Source: an uncultured Spirochaetales bacterium
GTDB taxonomy: Bacteria > Spirochaetota > Spirochaetia > Sphaerochaetales > Sphaerochaetaceae
NCBI GenBank assembly: GCA_937902565.1
Contig: CALFMX010000157.1
Location: forward strand, 1 to 15,630
Direction of reading: 5' to 3'
DNA: 15,630 nt
Shown: one piece after another, positions 9,357 through 15,600 of the stretch
Layout of the letters: the number at the start of each line of letters is the position of its first letter
How positions within the stretch are numbered: position 1 is the stretch's first letter
Made by a program: the position numbers and the translations under genes
The notes under the pieces: model-generated
Told to the model about the DNA's origin: nothing
The model's input: the letters and a program-made list of their open reading frames with translations, nothing else
The model's database searches: none

Positions 9357-10745
9357 ATGTGCATGTCCACACCAATAGCATCTGAGAACAAGATGGGGGT
9401 CAAGCCGATCCCCTCGCTCGTCCTGTCCATGTCATTTCCCATCATGCTCAGCATGCTGGTCCAGGCCCTCTACAACGTAGTCGATAGCCTCTACGTCTCC
9501 CACTACAGCCAGGACGCCCTTACCGCCCTCACCCTCGCCTTCCCCCTGCAGAACCTCCTCATCGCCGTCAGCGTCGGCACCTCGATCGGGATCAACTCCC
9601 TGATCAGCCGCAAGCTCGGCGCCCAGGACAAGAAGGCAGCGAGCAAGGCGGCGGGCAATGGGATCACCATCTCCCTGCTCAGCTGGCTGCTCTTTGCCGC
9701 TATCGGCCTCCTCTTCACCCGTCGCTTCATCGGCTTCTTCACCGCCGACGCCGAGCTCTTGCGCATGGGCCACATCTACAGCGCCATCGCCCTCTTCTTC
9801 TCACTGGGCGTCTTCATCGACATCACCTGTGAGCGGATCCTGCAGGCGACCGGGGACACGGTCAGGCCGATGATCATCCAGATGACCGGGGCTATAGTCA
9901 ACATCATCCTCGACCCGATCCTGATCTTCGGCTGGTTCGGCTTGCCACGCATGGGTGTGGTCGGGGCAGCGATCGCCACCGTCTTCGCCCAGCACGTCTC
10001 GGCGGTGATGGCCCTCTACTACGTGCGCAAGAACAAGGAGATTATCATCGAGAAGAGTGACCTGGCCCTTGAGTGGAAGACGGTCAAGGACATCTATGCA
10101 GTCGGCCTGCCCTCGATCATCATGCAGTCGATCGCCACGGTGCTCAACACCAGCCTCAACAAGATCCTCATCGGCTTCGGCACCGCCGCCGTTGCGGTCT
10201 TCGGCATCTACTTCCGCCTGCAGTCCTTCATCTTCATGCCGATCTTCGGCCTCAACAGCGGCCTCATCCCGATCATCGGCTACAACTACGGGGCCCGGAG
10301 GCCCAAGCGTATCACCGAAGCGCTCCGCGTCGGCATCATCCTCAGCCTGACCATCATGACCATCGGCTTCTTGCTCTTCACCTTCATCCCCCACATCCTC
10401 CTTGGCTGGTTCAACGCAACCGAGGCGATGGTGGCCATCGGGATCGTGGCGATGAAGCGCATCAGCCTCTGCTTCATCTCAGCGGGCATCTCCATCGTCC
10501 TCGGCTCCGCCTTCCAGGCAACCGGAGACGGTCACTTCACCATGATCACCAGCATAACACGCCAGCTCGTCTTCCTCCTGCCTGCAGCCTACCTGCTGGG
10601 CAAGTACTTCGGCCTCGATGCCCTCTGGTTGAGCTTCATCATCGCCGAGACTGCCTCCCTGATCCTGACAATCTTCTTCTTCATCAAGCTCTATAGGAAG
10701 AAGATCAAACCGCTGTCAGCGCCTGTGTCCACCGTGCAGTCATGA
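9357..10745 (+). CDS. MATE family efflux transporter
   Basis: A 462-residue, 12-helix protein of the multidrug and toxic compound extrusion family, which exports cationic compounds in exchange for Na+ or H+. 'GVKPIPSLVLSMSFPIMLSML' and 'QALYNVVDSLYVSH' open the first half, and 'GVVGAAIATVFAQ' and 'NYGARRPKRI' are conserved MATE blocks; the two halves repeat ('AVGLPSIIMQSIATVLNTS' begins the second). It resembles the MepA/NorM-like group of anaerobes. No good ribosome site precedes the candidate starts at 9357, 9363 and 9393. I choose 9357; the open frame continues upstream to 9222 but overlaps the MFS gene. Its TGA overlaps the stop of a convergent pseudogene in TCATGA (10740-10745), with no terminator between them. 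Confidence 0.92.
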   Translation: MCMSTPIASENKMGVKPIPSLVLSMSFPIMLSMLVQALYNVVDSLYVSHYSQDALTALTLAFPLQNLLIAVSVGTSIGINSLISRKLGAQDKKAASKAAGNGITISLLSWLLFAAIGLLFTRRFIGFFTADAELLRMGHIYSAIALFFSLGVFIDITCERILQATGDTVRPMIIQMTGAIVNIILDPILIFGWFGLPRMGVVGAAIATVFAQHVSAVMALYYVRKNKEIIIEKSDLALEWKTVKDIYAVGLPSIIMQSIATVLNTSLNKILIGFGTAAVAVFGIYFRLQSFIFMPIFGLNSGLIPIIGYNYGARRPKRITEALRVGIILSLTIMTIGFLLFTFIPHILLGWFNATEAMVAIGIVAMKRISLCFISAGISIVLGSAFQATGDGHFTMITSITRQLVFLLPAAYLLGKYFGLDALWLSFIIAETASLILTIFFFIKLYRKKIKPLSAPVSTVQS

Positions 10746-11270
10746 CCTTCTCGTGCCACTGACGATCTCCCCCACCGCCCAGAGCGGCACGTTGAGCAGC
10801 CACCCCTCATCTTTGTAGTCCGCCATATTGGCACGGATCGAGAGGTGGGGGTTGAACTTCTCACGATACACCTTGAGGCTCTTCACCTGCAAATTGAGTT
10901 CGGCCTTTACCTCAATCGGGATGACATCACTGCCGGTATCGATCATAAAATCCACCTCGGCGCTGCTTCGATCATTCGCCCAATAGCAGGTCTCGATCCC
11001 CTTCAGCATCTTGAGCTGTTGCACTACATATTGCTCGGTCAATGCACCCTTGAACTCCTTGAACAGCTCATTACCATCAAGGAGTGTACTCTGCTGCAAC
11101 CGCACCATGCAGGACAAGAGTCCAATATCCACGAGGAACAACGTGAAGGCCTTGGAATCTTCGTATGCCCTGCATAAAGCTCCAAGCCCGTCACGATGCG
11201 TTGGATATTGAAATCGGCGGAGAAGAGTTTTGCATAATACACGACATATTGATCCAGTATGTGTTGTGCA
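10740..11270 (-). pseudogene. AAA (AAA_14)/DUF4143 ATPase with internal deletion and frameshifts
   Basis: The C-terminal ~140 codons (11170-10740) are intact DUF4143: 'AYEDSKAFTLFLVDIGLLS', 'FKGALTEQYVVQQL', then the nuclease-like 'EVDFMIDTGSDVIPIEVKAE'. Immediately upstream, in a different frame, 'LFSADFNIQRIVTGLELYAG' (about 11225-11165) matches the N-terminal ATPase domain of the same family, normally some 150-200 codons away. The Walker A region, the rest of the ATPase and the middle are gone. Full-length relatives are ~400-450 residues, ATPases of uncertain role common in anaerobes. The gene is broken by an internal deletion near 11160-11172 plus frame changes, and no start or ribosome site is convincing. 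Confidence 0.75.
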
Positions 11271-11380
11271 GACCATACCCACATCATGAGGCTACCGCAT
11301 CTCTCTATCCTCTTGGTTGAAGAAGCTGTGGAACACACAAATCCACCCTCTCTGCAACTCTTGATACCGCTGAAGCACAA

Positions 11381-11659: not shown

Positions 11660-12880
11660 TCACTCCCACTCAATGGTGGCAGGCGGCTTGTCGCTGATAT
11701 CGAGGAGCACCCGGCTGACTGAGGTCACTTCGCTGAGAATGCGGGCCGAGATGGTCTTCAACAGTGCGGCATCGAAGGGGTAGCAGGTGGCATGGATTGC
11801 ATCGACGCTCTCCACTGCCCTGATGGTGCACACCTCCTGGTGGCTGCGCTGCCCATCGCGGATCCCCACGCTCTTGACCGGCAGGAGGCAGGCGATAGCC
11901 TGGAAGACCTTGTCGTAGAGGCCGGCCTTTCGTACCTCCTCGATGAAGATTGCATCCACGTCGCGCAGCGTATCGAGCCGCTGTTTGGTCACCGCTCCCA
12001 CGCAGCGGACCCCGAGGCCGGGACCCGGGAAGGGGTGGCGGCCCAAGAGCTCTGAAGGAAGGCCCAATACACGACCGAGCTGGCGCACCTCGTCCTTGAA
12101 GAGTTCGCGCAGTGGCTCGAGCAGTTCCCACTTCAGGTCGGCAGGAAGGCCGCCGACGTTGTGGTGGCTCTTGATGGCAAGCGAGCCGGCCTTTGCCGGG
12201 TTGAGGCTCTCGATGACATCGGCGTAGATGGTGCCCTGGGCGAGGAAGGAGATGGTCCCGAGGGAGCGGCCCGCCTCATAGAAGGTATCGACGAAGAGGC
12301 GCCCGATGATCTTGCGCTTCTCTTCAGGGTCTGAGACATCTTTTAACGCTTGGAGGAAGCGCTCCTCTGCATCGACGGTGACCAGGTTGATCTTGTAGTG
12401 CTCCCTAAAGAGCTGTTCGACCATCGCAGCCTCCCCCTTGCGAAGCAGGCCATGGTCGACGAAGACACAGACCAGCTGGTCGCCGATGGCCCGGTGGATG
12501 AGGAGGGCGGCGACCGAACTGTCAACCCCGCCCGAGAGGCCAAGCAGCACCCGTTTGTCCCCTACCCGCTCCCTGATGGCCTTCACCTGACTCTCGATGA
12601 ACGCCTCCATGGACCAGGAGGCGGAGAGACCTGCCACCTCAAAAAGAAAGTGGGAGAGCGCCCCCTCGTCGATGGCAGCAGTGGAGTCGATGCTCATCGC
12701 CTTCAGTGTGGTCTCAGGCACTGGCGTCTGGTCGCAGATGATGACGGCCTGCGCCCCAAGGGAGGCGAGCGCCTCTGGGGTGAAGACGACCTGGCTGTAG
12801 ACGCCAAGGCTTCTCACCGCCCTGGCGACGTGGTGGACGGGATGTTCACCATTGGTGTAGATAGCTACGGTATCGTGCAT
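11660..12880 (-). CDS. guaA: GMP synthase with degenerate, truncated glutaminase domain
   Basis: A 406-residue protein from ATG 12880 with GGTAGGAG ahead; an upstream in-frame GTG at 12895 overlaps that ribosome site. The synthetase part is complete. The PP-loop 'LSGGVDSS' is at 115-122, 'RKIIGRLFVDTF' and 'LAQGTIYADVIES' follow, then 'IKSHHNVGGLP', 'LFKDEVRQLGR', 'RHPFPGPGLGVR', and the dimerisation domain ending 'DISDKPPATIEWE'. It converts XMP to GMP via an adenylated intermediate. Normal GuaA is ~510-525 residues with an N-terminal glutaminase of ~200. Here only ~110 residues precede the PP-loop. They align to the first strands ('VARAVRSLGVYSQVV') and the last helix ('FLFEVAGLSASWSMEAFI') of that domain. 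The nucleophile-elbow Cys motif and the 'HPE' His-Glu pair are absent. It is the last gene of the ecf operon, 8 bp after ecfS. Confidence 0.95.
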   Translation of the reverse strand: MHDTVAIYTNGEHPVHHVARAVRSLGVYSQVVFTPEALASLGAQAVIICDQTPVPETTLKAMSIDSTAAIDEGALSHFLFEVAGLSASWSMEAFIESQVKAIRERVGDKRVLLGLSGGVDSSVAALLIHRAIGDQLVCVFVDHGLLRKGEAAMVEQLFREHYKINLVTVDAEERFLQALKDVSDPEEKRKIIGRLFVDTFYEAGRSLGTISFLAQGTIYADVIESLNPAKAGSLAIKSHHNVGGLPADLKWELLEPLRELFKDEVRQLGRVLGLPSELLGRHPFPGPGLGVRCVGAVTKQRLDTLRDVDAIFIEEVRKAGLYDKVFQAIACLLPVKSVGIRDGQRSHQEVCTIRAVESVDAIHATCYPFDAALLKTISARILSEVTSVSRVLLDISDKPPATIEWE

Positions 12881-12888
12881 ATTGACTC

Positions 12889-13410
12889 CTACCACGAGAG
12901 GGCGCTAACCGGGGGATAGGCGCGCTTGACTGCGCTCGAGACGGCCAGGCCGAGGATGAAACCGACTGCGCTTTGGACGAGGTTGCCCGGAATCTCGGCA
13001 GCGGCAACGGCAGCGGTGCTGATAAAGAGCGCTGACAAGGCGAAGTAGCCGAGACTGACAGTAGCCATGCAGACGATGCCGGCAATGATTTTCCTCAAAA
13101 ACGACGCTTCATGGTCACCTTTGCTGCGGACGATCAGGGCGATGAGAAGCCCCTCCAGGCCGTGGACGGCAAAGGAGATGGGCGCCCACTGGGCGTACCC
13201 GCTGATCAGGTCGGCCAGAGCGGTCCCCAGAGCTGCTGCGATGAACGATGAGGCGGGACCGAAGGTGAAGGCGATGAAGCAGATGGCGACATCACAGAGG
13301 TTGAGGTACCCCTTTGCGGTCGGGATACGGATGATCATGGTGAAGACAACGACTACCGCCGTCAACACTGCGGTCACAGCGAGCTTGAGTGCATTACGAT
13401 TCTGTTGCAT
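12889..13410 (-). CDS. ECF transporter S component (substrate-binding membrane subunit)
   Basis: A 173-residue integral membrane protein with about six hydrophobic segments. ATG at 13410 follows GGGAG, which overlaps the end of ecfT; the gap is 9 bp. It begins with 'ALKLAVTAVLTAVVVVFTMI', then 'IRIPTAKGYLNLCDVAICFI', 'TFGPASSFIAAALGTALADL', 'GYAQWAPISFAVHGLEGLLI'. This is the pattern of the ECF-type S-component family often annotated as riboflavin- or HMP-type (PF07155-like). S components capture a vitamin or nucleobase and deliver it to the EcfA-EcfT module. The substrate cannot be told from these motifs, but the tight linkage to guaA points to purine metabolism rather than riboflavin. The family call is fairly sure. 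Confidence 0.87.
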   Translation of the reverse strand: MQQNRNALKLAVTAVLTAVVVVFTMIIRIPTAKGYLNLCDVAICFIAFTFGPASSFIAAALGTALADLISGYAQWAPISFAVHGLEGLLIALIVRSKGDHEASFLRKIIAGIVCMATVSLGYFALSALFISTAAVAAAEIPGNLVQSAVGFILGLAVSSAVKRAYPPVSALSW

Positions 13411-13419
13411 GGTATCTCC

Positions 13420-14187
13420 CTATGCTTTGAAGATCAGCCAAAGCACAGTGACAATGGTAATGGAAATGACAAAATCGGTAAATAGATGGGTGTAGGAGTC
13501 GAGGCTGCGGTAGCTGCTGCGCGTCTCACTACGTCCAAGGCCCCGCATCTCCAGGCTCATCGCCAGGTTGGGGATGGAGCGCAGGGCGACGACGAGGACA
13601 CTGGTGAGGGTGGGCAACAGATCCTTGAGGCGTTGGATGTAGTTCTTCTTCTCCTCGTCGGCAGCCTCCCTGAGGCTGTGGCTCTCCCCAATCTGGGAGA
13701 AGGATTCGGCGATGAAGGGGATGGAGGAGAAGGAGAGGGTCACCACCAGAGCCGCCTTGTAGGGCAGGCGCCAGAAGCGCAGCGCCAACATGAGCTCCCC
13801 CATCACGGTGGTGGCAAAGAGGAGGGTACAGACGTAGGTGATACCGATGAAACGGCAGGCGAGGCGCAGGGCCTGTGCCGCCCCCTCAACCGTGATGATC
13901 GTCACTGACCCTATGCTGAGGAGCACCTCCCCTCCCCTGACGTTGAAGGGGGCGAAGAGGAGCATGAAGAGGAGCATCGGGGTGATGGACTTGAGCACCG
14001 AGACCATGTTCCGTGTTCCGGTGTTGTGCCACCCCACCGCGATGACCAGTAGCACACTCACAGCCAGTCCCACCAGGGTGATGGGGAGGAAGAAGAAGAC
14101 ACAGAGGAGGATCATCAGGAGGATCTTTGCCCGCGGGTCGAAGCGGTAGAGCCAGCCCCGTCCATCTACGAAGGTCGAGGTGTTCAT
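13420..14187 (-). CDS. ecfT: ECF transporter transmembrane component EcfT
   Basis: A 255-residue membrane protein, the coupling subunit between the ATPases and the S component. ATG at 14187 overlaps the stop of ecfA by four bases (ATGA), so the two are translationally coupled. The N-terminal 'WLYRFDPRAKILLMILLCVF' is the usual EcfT opening ('DPR.K' before the first helix). Several membrane segments follow to ~130. The cytoplasmic coupling region includes 'FSSIPFIAESFSQIGESHSLR' and 'ALRSIPNLAMSLEMRGLGR', whose 'MRG' near residues 214-216 fits the ATPase-docking X-R-X motif. One last membrane helix closes the protein. Placement between ecfA and ecfS supports the call. Confidence 0.92.
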   Translation of the reverse strand: MNTSTFVDGRGWLYRFDPRAKILLMILLCVFFFLPITLVGLAVSVLLVIAVGWHNTGTRNMVSVLKSITPMLLFMLLFAPFNVRGGEVLLSIGSVTIITVEGAAQALRLACRFIGITYVCTLLFATTVMGELMLALRFWRLPYKAALVVTLSFSSIPFIAESFSQIGESHSLREAADEEKKNYIQRLKDLLPTLTSVLVVALRSIPNLAMSLEMRGLGRSETRSSYRSLDSYTHLFTDFVISITIVTVLWLIFKA

Positions 14188-15600
14188 GCGTCTCTCAGCC
14201 TCCCCCCTTCGATGGTATACCCCCGCCCCCCTACCTTGGAGGCGAAGAGGCGGTCGTGGGTGATGAGGAGGATTGCCGCCCCGCGCCTCCTCAGGTGGGC
14301 GATGATGGTGAGGGCACTATGGTAGGTAAGGGCACTGTCAAGCTCATCGAGGATGTAGAAGGGGCGGTCGAGGAGGTAGTAGACGGCAGCCTGCAGCGCC
14401 TTGCGTCCCGGATAGCTCATCGTCGTCGGGGTGTCGGTGAGGGTGAGGCCAAAGAGCTCCGCTGCTTCACTCACCAGACCCTTGATCTCGCGAGGCGAGA
14501 GGTCGCTCCGTCTCTTGAGTGACCAGGCAAGCTCATCCTCCACCGTCGGCAGGAAGATCTGCAGGTCGGGGTTCTGGAAGAGGTAGCCGACGGTTCGGTT
14601 GAGCCCCTTTGAGGGGGAAGGAACCCCATCGATGGTGATGACCCCGCTCTTGGGTTCATCGAGGCCACAGAGCAGGCGGCTGAAGGAGCTCTTGCCACTG
14701 CCGTTGGCTCCGGTGAGGGTCACCACCTCCCCGCTCTGCAGCTCAAAGCCCTCCACCACCAGCTCGAAGGGGGCTACGCGGAGTGCATTGCGCCGTCTGC
14801 GCTCCACCACCAAATCCTCCATGCTGCTGTCGATATCCTCCACGGCAAGGGTATGTGTGTAACGAGGTTCAATGGGAGCTGCCCCGAGTGGGTTGGGTCG
14901 GTCATCACCCGAGAGGTGGGCAAAGCGGTCGAGCAGGTCGCCTCGCTCCATCTCGACAACGCTCTTGCCATCGAGCAGGAGCACCCGGTCAAAGAGATCG
15001 GCGAACTCGTCGAGGTAGCGGCTGGCCAACACCAGGGTAGTCCGGCCCTCCTGGGCGATCACCTGCTGAAGGTGGCCCCTCCACTCTACATCCAGATCAT
15101 CGAAGACCTCATCGAGCAACCAGAGACGGGGGGCGATCGCATCCTGGATTGCCAGGAGCACCCGCTTGCGCTCCCCTCCGCTCAGCTCGCTCTCGTTGGC
15201 ACCCCTGAGGTGGGTGAGACCCCACTTCTCGAGGGCCCAGTCGATACGCTCTGCCATCTCACTCCGTACAAGGCCGAGGGACTCCAGGGGGAAGGCGATT
15301 TCCTCCTCCACGGTGGTGGCGATGAACTGCTCAGCCGGGTTCTGGGAGACATAGCCCACCTCGGTGAGCAGCTGCCATGGCTCGGTGAGGGAGAGGTCAT
15401 GGCCGAAGACCGAGATGGTGCCCGTCAATGTGCCGGGAAAGTACTTGGGGCAGACGCCACAGATGATCTTGGCGAGCGTGGTCTTGCCCTTGTCAAAGGG
15501 GGCAAGGAGCAGGACCCGCTCCCCCTCCCCGATCACCAGATTGAGATCGGATAGGAGGGGTTCCACCTCGATCCCATCATAGGACCGGTAGGTGAAGCGC
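14184..15600 (-). CDS. ecfA: Fused ECF transporter ATPase (EcfA-EcfA), 5' end cut by adapter
   Basis: A two-domain ATPase of at least 471 residues. Homology continues upstream of a GTG at 15566 ('RFTYRSYDG', the adenine-stacking A-loop), so the true start lies beyond the adapter junction. Numbering from that GTG: domain 1 has Walker A 'APFDKGKTT' (22-30; first Gly replaced by Ala), Q-loop Q75, canonical signature 'LSGGERKR' (128-135), Walker B 'LWLLDEVF' (148-155), but Ser182 in 'LASRYLDE' where the H-loop His is expected. Domain 2 has canonical Walker A 'GANGSGKSS' (286-294), Q331, Walker B 'FYILDEL' and His437 ('ITHD'), but the signature is degraded to 'MSYPG' (383-387). One ATP site should therefore be consensus and the other degenerate. 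It powers the transporter with EcfT and the S component encoded next in the operon. Confidence 0.9.

Follow-up and report, generated by a model that had tools for sequence, protein, structure and literature searches.

A short GuaA without a glutaminase core in a Sphaerochaeta-like bacterium: a probable ammonia-dependent GMP synthase

GMP is one of the units from which RNA and DNA are built. To our knowledge, bacterial GMP synthases are not known to draw their nitrogen directly from free ammonia. In one review, the bacterial enzymes are presented as having two domains (PMC10526850, excerpt), and a survey of ATP-dependent amidotransferases in 730 genomes scored guaA as 100% fused and none as 'no glutaminase' (PMC3376133, Table 1, excerpt). 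The 100% figure must rest on bacteria or on rounding, since archaeal split forms are known. Among enzymes that dispense with a glutaminase, the short, NH3-dependent NAD synthetase (NadE) is likewise an N-type ATP pyrophosphatase acting on free ammonia, and most single-domain NAD synthetases use free ammonia in vivo (PMC3376133, excerpt).

The window, which is the whole stretch of 15,630 nucleotides that was analysed, carries a GuaA of 406 aa that can be set beside four of these or related systems. With the two-domain GuaA of the E. coli 1GPM type it shares the ATPPase and dimerisation domains, the synthesis motifs, the operon and the ancestry; however, the short form has no catalytic glutaminase (GATase) domain, keeps only what appears to be its docking half, and has lost the second basic residue of helix alpha1 in 12 of 13 cases. 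Like the ATPPase subunit of the archaeal two-subunit enzyme (2DPL, 3A4I, 6JP9), it is a synthetase without a covalent glutaminase, which in Archaea is a separate chain, but it bears an 88-residue GATase-derived N-terminal extension, and no partner GATase gene was found in the searches described below. Sphaerochaetaceae also have a synthetase-only GuaA of about 326 aa (G012, G035, G145 and other genomes), again a bacterial GuaA without GATase, although this form belongs to a separate clade, has no GATase remnant and is mostly a second copy beside a longer GuaA. Short NadE differs in substrate and family and has been proposed to be ancestral (PMC3376133, excerpt), whereas the short GuaA would be derived by deletion.

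Text searches of the literature, with full texts largely outside their scope, yielded no description that we recognised of a glutaminase-less bacterial GuaA. The short form is new, yet not unique in kind, as the synthetase-only GuaA is common in the same family.

The short guaA gene and its N-terminal stub

The window belongs to a fragmented metagenome-assembled genome (MAG) of a Sphaerochaeta-like bacterium (G000; 2.33 Mb, 332 contigs, 86% complete), in which the short gene is the sole guaA found. The search for a second copy, suggested in a preliminary description of this DNA, was run with the PF00958 profile over the genome and returned a single match. The gene starts with the ATG at 12880 of the minus strand, and its features are summarized in Table 1.

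Table 1. Features of the short guaA gene and its operon in the window, with one synthetase-only gene from another locus
Feature	Position	Strand	Basis
guaA, short form, 406 aa	11660..12880 (stop 11660-11662)	minus	ORF without internal stops, family profile matches
AGGAG, ribosome-binding-site-like, 5 bases ahead of the ATG	12886..12890	minus	read directly
Remnant of the GATase N-terminal half, residues 1-52 (beta1-alpha1-beta2-alpha2-beta3)	12725..12880	minus	hhalign, dN/dS, models
Predicted strand 60-64, putative junction ~64-72, predicted helix 72-82 and linker (residues 53-88)	12617..12724	minus	alignments, models
PP-loop SGGVDSS, residues 116-122	12515..12535	minus	alignments, motif search
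Signature PEEKRKIIGRLF, residues 185-196	12293..12328	minus	motif after PMC9312489 (excerpt)
Lid-loop IKSHHN, residues 236-241	12158..12175	minus	motif search
alpha12 motif KDEVR, residues 262-266 (substrate binding, alpha1 docking)	12083..12097	minus	motif search, PMC10526850 (excerpt)
Dimerisation domain PF00958	11666..11941	minus	Pfam, 1.8e-32
C-terminal motif KPPATIEWE	11663-11689	minus	motif search
ECF transporter S component, immediately ahead of guaA	12889..13410	minus	Pfam PF07155, synteny
ECF transporter T component (CbiQ family)	13420..14187	minus	Pfam, synteny
ECF transporter ATPase, two ABC domains	14184..15566	minus	Pfam, synteny
Synthetase-only GuaA, example	L006, 5363-6355		

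Pfam matched GMP_synt_C and the ATPPase region in the 406-aa protein and gave no match to GATase (PF00117). The NCBIfam whole-GuaA model aligned its positions 179-512 with residues 74-406, alignments with full-length GMP synthetases of the PDB began at residues 69-78, and structural alignment to 9kpv, 7sbc and 1gpm gave 46-47% identity over 366-369 residues. The NCBIfam score of 488.9 bits exceeds the cut-off of 400 for 'glutamine-hydrolyzing GMP synthase'; the automatic label is given regardless of the missing glutaminase, and hence glutaminase-less enzymes can hide in databases. Membership of the nadE family was not indicated, as TIGR00552 gave 43.2 bits, under its cut-off of 63.65.

The synthetase and dimerisation domains had been described as complete, and this holds in the Pfam domains and in the motifs: SGGVDS, the PEXKRKIIGXXF type, [IV]KSHHN, DXXES, KDEV and KPPXTXE were each found in 13/13 short forms, the lid-loop reading IKSHHN in ten and VKSHHN in three. 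Motif definitions, among them that of the C-terminal KPPXTXE(F/W), follow PMC9312489 (including PEXKRKIIGXXF and the lid-loop) and PMC10526850 (both excerpts), while the PP-loop pattern was taken from the sequences of relatives. PEXKRKIIGXXF was scored with a pattern relaxed at two positions, [PA]E.KRK[IT]IG..F, which misses 8 of 104 full-length forms.

The difference lies ahead of the PP-loop. In the short GuaA the PP-loop begins at residue 116, after 115 residues, and in the full-length forms read it usually follows 222-231 residues (more if an upstream start is taken), in line with the earlier estimate of about 110 against about 230. Alignment with P0019-type GuaA gives a net loss of 111 residues, the ordinary distance to the PP-loop being about 226. 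Both the Cys elbow (G-I-C-Y-G) and HPE are missing by motif reading and in the alignments, as the preliminary description had stated and as reading the short forms against full-length relatives bears out; the N-terminus holds no class I GATase with a Cys-His-Glu triad.

What is left of this domain was compared by hhalign, in which the 13 short N-termini matched a full-length GATase profile with a probability of 97.9% (E 4e-13, 51 columns), against 0.14% for a reversed-profile control. This comparison indicates that the similarity of the stub to GATase is homology, not chance. It is detectable by profile, since a single-sequence search with the GATase HMM missed the stubs of the window and of G006 at E 0.01; the same search detected the stub of G022 (E 3e-8). 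A stub-only query recovered just three proteins (P0001, P0002 and P0006) among 160 candidates, because the stub diverges too fast for that search tool.

The remnant had been placed at residues ~5-50 and ~75-110. These ranges need slight correction: the homology is clear at residues 2-52, beyond which a predicted strand at 60-64 and a predicted helix at 72-82 resemble the strand just ahead of the catalytic Cys and the final GATase helix, respectively. The segment bearing Cys, His and Glu is absent within residues 53-88, and, as judged from the alignments, the deletion junction probably lies at about residues 64-72.

Helix alpha1 (residues 16-24 in the short GuaA) is the one that docks on the ATPPase in known GMP synthetases (PMC10526850, excerpt). 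The first basic residue of its docking motif, the counterpart of Plasmodium Lys24 by motif order, is kept in 13/13 short forms, and the second, mostly lost here, is kept in 104/104 full-length forms. The invariant stub residues in the 13 forms are G11, A19-R20, R23, G26, Y28-S29, L38 and L79. Structure models gave residues 1-100 a block mean pLDDT of 86-97, likewise with the short clade alone as input, and predict that the stub, of ~85-88 residues, folds as a small four-stranded alpha/beta cap with alpha1 retained. In the first model (residues 1 to 401), 369 residues aligned with whole GMP synthetases versus 275-281 with ATPPase subunits alone.

Relatives and origin of the short clade

The short type (400-406 aa) accounts for 13 of the best 120 homologue clusters from at least 8000 scored (P0001-P0012 and P0014). 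P0001 represents the GuaA of the window, with which it shares 99% identity, and identities of the remaining twelve range over 60-83%. Three whole genomes of the genus carry the short GuaA, G000, G006 and G022 (86%, 92% and 87% complete), and in 139 genomes of the family these three provided the sole matches starting at residue 1 among the matches listed. The short forms made up one clade of 14 rows, with 99% SH-aLRT in the first tree and 100/99 in a 63-row tree. The first tree had 99 rows, including 64 intact ones, with L147 and L157 (long upstream starts) classed as synthetase-only; the 63-row tree, drawn from these, omits the synthetase-only rows, L159, L027, the truncated one and some of the intact ones. 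P0103 (348 aa, starting MQFHPE) was set aside, by eye, as a truncated gene model. We regard the short GuaA of this MAG as confirmed.

Between G000 and G006, dN/dS was 0.20 for codons 2-50, 0.30 for codons 2-66 and 0.58 for codons 51-85, and in the synthetase part 0.15 (codons 91-300) and 0.10 (301-406). Codons 2-50 of the stub are under purifying selection. The view that the deletion is in frame and functional rather than a step in decay is well supported by the motifs, the single clade, the conserved operon and a dN/dS far below 1 along most of the coding sequence.

The ECF ATPase, ECF T and ECF S genes precede the short guaA in this order in the window, L003 and L154. The same operon, whole or in the part covered by the locus, also precedes the full-length guaA of many relatives, though not at every locus read. 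Given this shared operon, the short gene is most simply an orthologue that underwent deletion in place, not an import. Trees and synteny agree that it is orthologous to the guaA of the genus, most simply the ordinary two-domain guaA of Sphaerochaetaceae. The ECF-guaA arrangement is common in Sphaerochaetaceae and suggests purine-related import, perhaps of xanthine or hypoxanthine; no specific NCBIfam model matched the S component above cut-off.

Other GuaA forms with a defective glutaminase were also found. The catalytic Cys is replaced by Gly in P0013, which keeps HPE, by Tyr in L012, and by Gly in L150 (G027:C77), which has lost HPE; P0051 (460 aa) has a partly deleted GATase, and both motifs are gone from L027 (Bacillota). 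Sequencing errors are possible in P0013 and L012, each of which is a single sequence. These full-length or near-full-length Cys-less forms probably represent several separate inactivations of the glutaminase. P0013 may be an intermediate towards the short clade: a sister position was compatible with the AU test (p 0.43), and the free tree places it among intact forms. Grouping with the short clade was weakly rejected for L150 (p 0.043) and not rejected at 5% for P0051 (p 0.073), so that their origins look separate, though not decisively. Together with the short enzyme, the Cys-less P0013, L150 and P0051 offer a natural series for studying the loss of channelling.

The ~326-aa synthetase-only GuaA forms its own clade on a long stem. 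It is abundant in databases, supplying nearly all of the best 120 of 7999 scored, and often occurs as a second copy in two of the family's genera; among the matches listed, some genomes have no other copy. Fifteen genes of this kind were read, at as many loci (L006, L140-L149 and L155-L158), mostly with flanks of 0.3 to 4 kb. In 13 of them no GATase ORF lay near the gene, and L006 and L140 hold the full-length GuaA of the genome. This form is possibly another ammonia-dependent GMP synthase.

Amidotransferase content of the genus

Class I glutaminases were searched with PF00117 over 26 genomes of the genus. The 20 genomes with ordinary GuaA each had two to seven matches. The Cys elbow and HPE were read in the GuaA of 17 of these; in G004 and G018 the PF00117 match lies in the same frame as GuaA, and the G005 gene is apparently split over two contigs. 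No native match was found in G000, G006 or G022, nor any match in G010, G014 and G023, which gave no GuaA match either, so that all three short-GuaA genomes fall within the six-genome set without a native class I match. The only PF00117 match in G000 is a C-terminal GATase piece, PyrG-like by eye, at a contig end (L002, G000:C272); it was counted as archaeal contamination because it lies beside an archaeal IF-2 beta gene. Neither the window nor the sequence read near the short genes of G006 and G022 contained a separate GATase ORF. G010, G014 and G023, all of this genus, are small (1.4-1.7 Mb, 80-82% complete) and have IMPDH matches but no match to PF00117, PF13522 or GuaA.

Class II glutaminases were searched with PF13522 in 13 genomes, which gave one match in G000 (AsnB-type), one in G020, four in each of six others, and none in G006, G022, G010, G014 and G023. 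A complete loss of glutamine amidotransferases was rejected as stated for G000, in which the AsnB-type gene is present. This gene (L120, G000:C43) would encode a glutamine-dependent asparagine synthase in an otherwise amidotransferase-poor genome; its sequence looks foreign by eye, possibly reflecting horizontal transfer or a chimeric contig. The partner search covered PF00117 and PF13522, with GATase_2, GATase_5, GatA and nitrilase types outside its scope.

PyrG was not found in G000, G006, G009, G010, G014 and G020 (G022 lay outside that search), and of 10 genomes searched for CarB, 8 gave none, including G000, G006, G022, G020 and G027. The idea that other amidotransferases had also shed just their glutaminase was not borne out for PyrG (G000 and G006) or CarB (all three short-GuaA genomes); their acceptor parts were not found either, which fits loss of the whole enzymes. 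The PF13522 query is the glutaminase domain, beyond whose reach lie the acceptor parts of GlmS, PurF and AsnB. The short-clade lineage has few amidotransferases, PyrG and CarB missing whole and GuaA minus its glutaminase only. Such absences are not special to the short clade, with PyrG also missing in G009 and G020 and CarB in G020 and G027, and some genomes with ordinary GuaA lack them too, so that the association between amidotransferase loss and the deletion amounts to a correlation in one clade.

For IMPDH, which makes XMP, a complete gene was found in G006 and a partial one in G000, and nothing passed the cut-off in G022. All three genomes have a glutamine-synthetase match; its frame is 720-756 aa long, presumably type III by length. 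Given this match and the AsnB-type gene of G000, glutamine is not absent from short-clade cells.

Proposed mechanism and competing explanations

We propose, with a probability of roughly 0.77, that the short GuaA is an ammonia-only GMP synthase that arose by deletion in place and has kept the stub as a structural cap. An in-frame deletion in the common ancestor of the short clade would have excised the catalytic portion of the glutaminase domain. The ATPPase domain would still adenylate XMP, and the amide nitrogen would come from free ammonia, taken from the medium or the cytosol, in an NH3-dependent amination of XMP, and not from glutamine via a tunnel. By analogy with known enzymes, free ammonia is most likely the substrate: the isolated E. 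coli and Plasmodium ATPPase domains form GMP when NH3 is supplied, and the ATPPase does not require the GATase for its activity (PMC10526850, excerpt). Known GMP synthetases prefer glutamine, with a Km for NH4Cl of up to 174 mM (PMC10526850, excerpt); at so high a Km, free ammonia could serve only in a rich habitat or with altered kinetics. The stub would have refolded into a small cap that holds alpha1 on the ATPPase helices alpha11/alpha12, and it may be kept for structure, perhaps for the lid-loop, and not for catalysis; we infer its role and its docking, and likewise the evolutionary rationale. The change would belong to a lineage with smaller genomes, where the search found no further native class I GATase and GuaA is perhaps the only former class I amidotransferase. 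Should free ammonia indeed be the substrate in this clade, GMP synthesis would join NAD synthesis among the steps feasible without glutamine in vivo.

The preliminary description had offered two sources of ammonia, of which the free form fits best. The other, a separate class I or non-homologous glutaminase that binds the short GuaA and supplies it with ammonia, has a precedent in archaeal GMP synthetases, which are split and whose subunits associate only transiently (PMC10526850, excerpt), and a partner could have been missed in incomplete genomes or among the nitrilase-like, serine-type and GatA-like glutaminases outside the search scope. We nevertheless consider it quite improbable, as PF00117 gave nothing native in the three genomes, the neighbourhoods read hold no GATase ORF, and the stub as modelled would take up the alpha1 docking face needed by a GATase subunit. 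A stub that is more than a cap, forming a new regulatory or ammonia-handling module, would agree with the confidently predicted small fold, the selection on residues 2-50 and the invariant residues; it seems unlikely nonetheless, because most of those residues belong to the ancestral region of the docking helix, no new motif appeared, and conservation is lowest in the N-terminal region. A broader version of the ammonia-only reading, which we advance tentatively and consider doubtful, is that the lineage shed its class I GATases, that GuaA as the last one became an ammonia enzyme, and that the docking-half mini-domain gates or assists NH3 entry in place of the tunnel.

That the gene is decaying or repurposed and no longer serves to make GMP is suggested only by the faster evolution of the stub, most visible in codons 51-85. 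It is very unlikely in view of the intact synthesis and dimerisation motifs in 13/13 forms, the constraint on the synthetase part, the status of the gene as the only guaA found in its genome, and the age and diversity of the clade (down to 60% identity). A collapse of the assembly or a sequencing error that lost about 111 codons might be suspected in a MAG of 332 contigs, but this explanation is ruled out by the twelve further clusters, from several sources, that share the short architecture, and is countered also by the short genes of G006 and G022, which are open and syntenic.

Two further loci in the window were recorded. Adjoining guaA, positions 10740-11282 of the minus strand encode a C-terminal piece of a DUF4143 protein; such proteins usually carry an ATPase part, which is missing here, and the locus looks like a broken gene. 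At positions 1702-2838 of the plus strand, an EncFtn-like protein (PF22277) is followed by an encapsulin shell protein (PF04454), forming an encapsulated-ferritin iron store, and the C-terminal end of the ferritin, SLGIGTLK, resembles a cargo-loading peptide.
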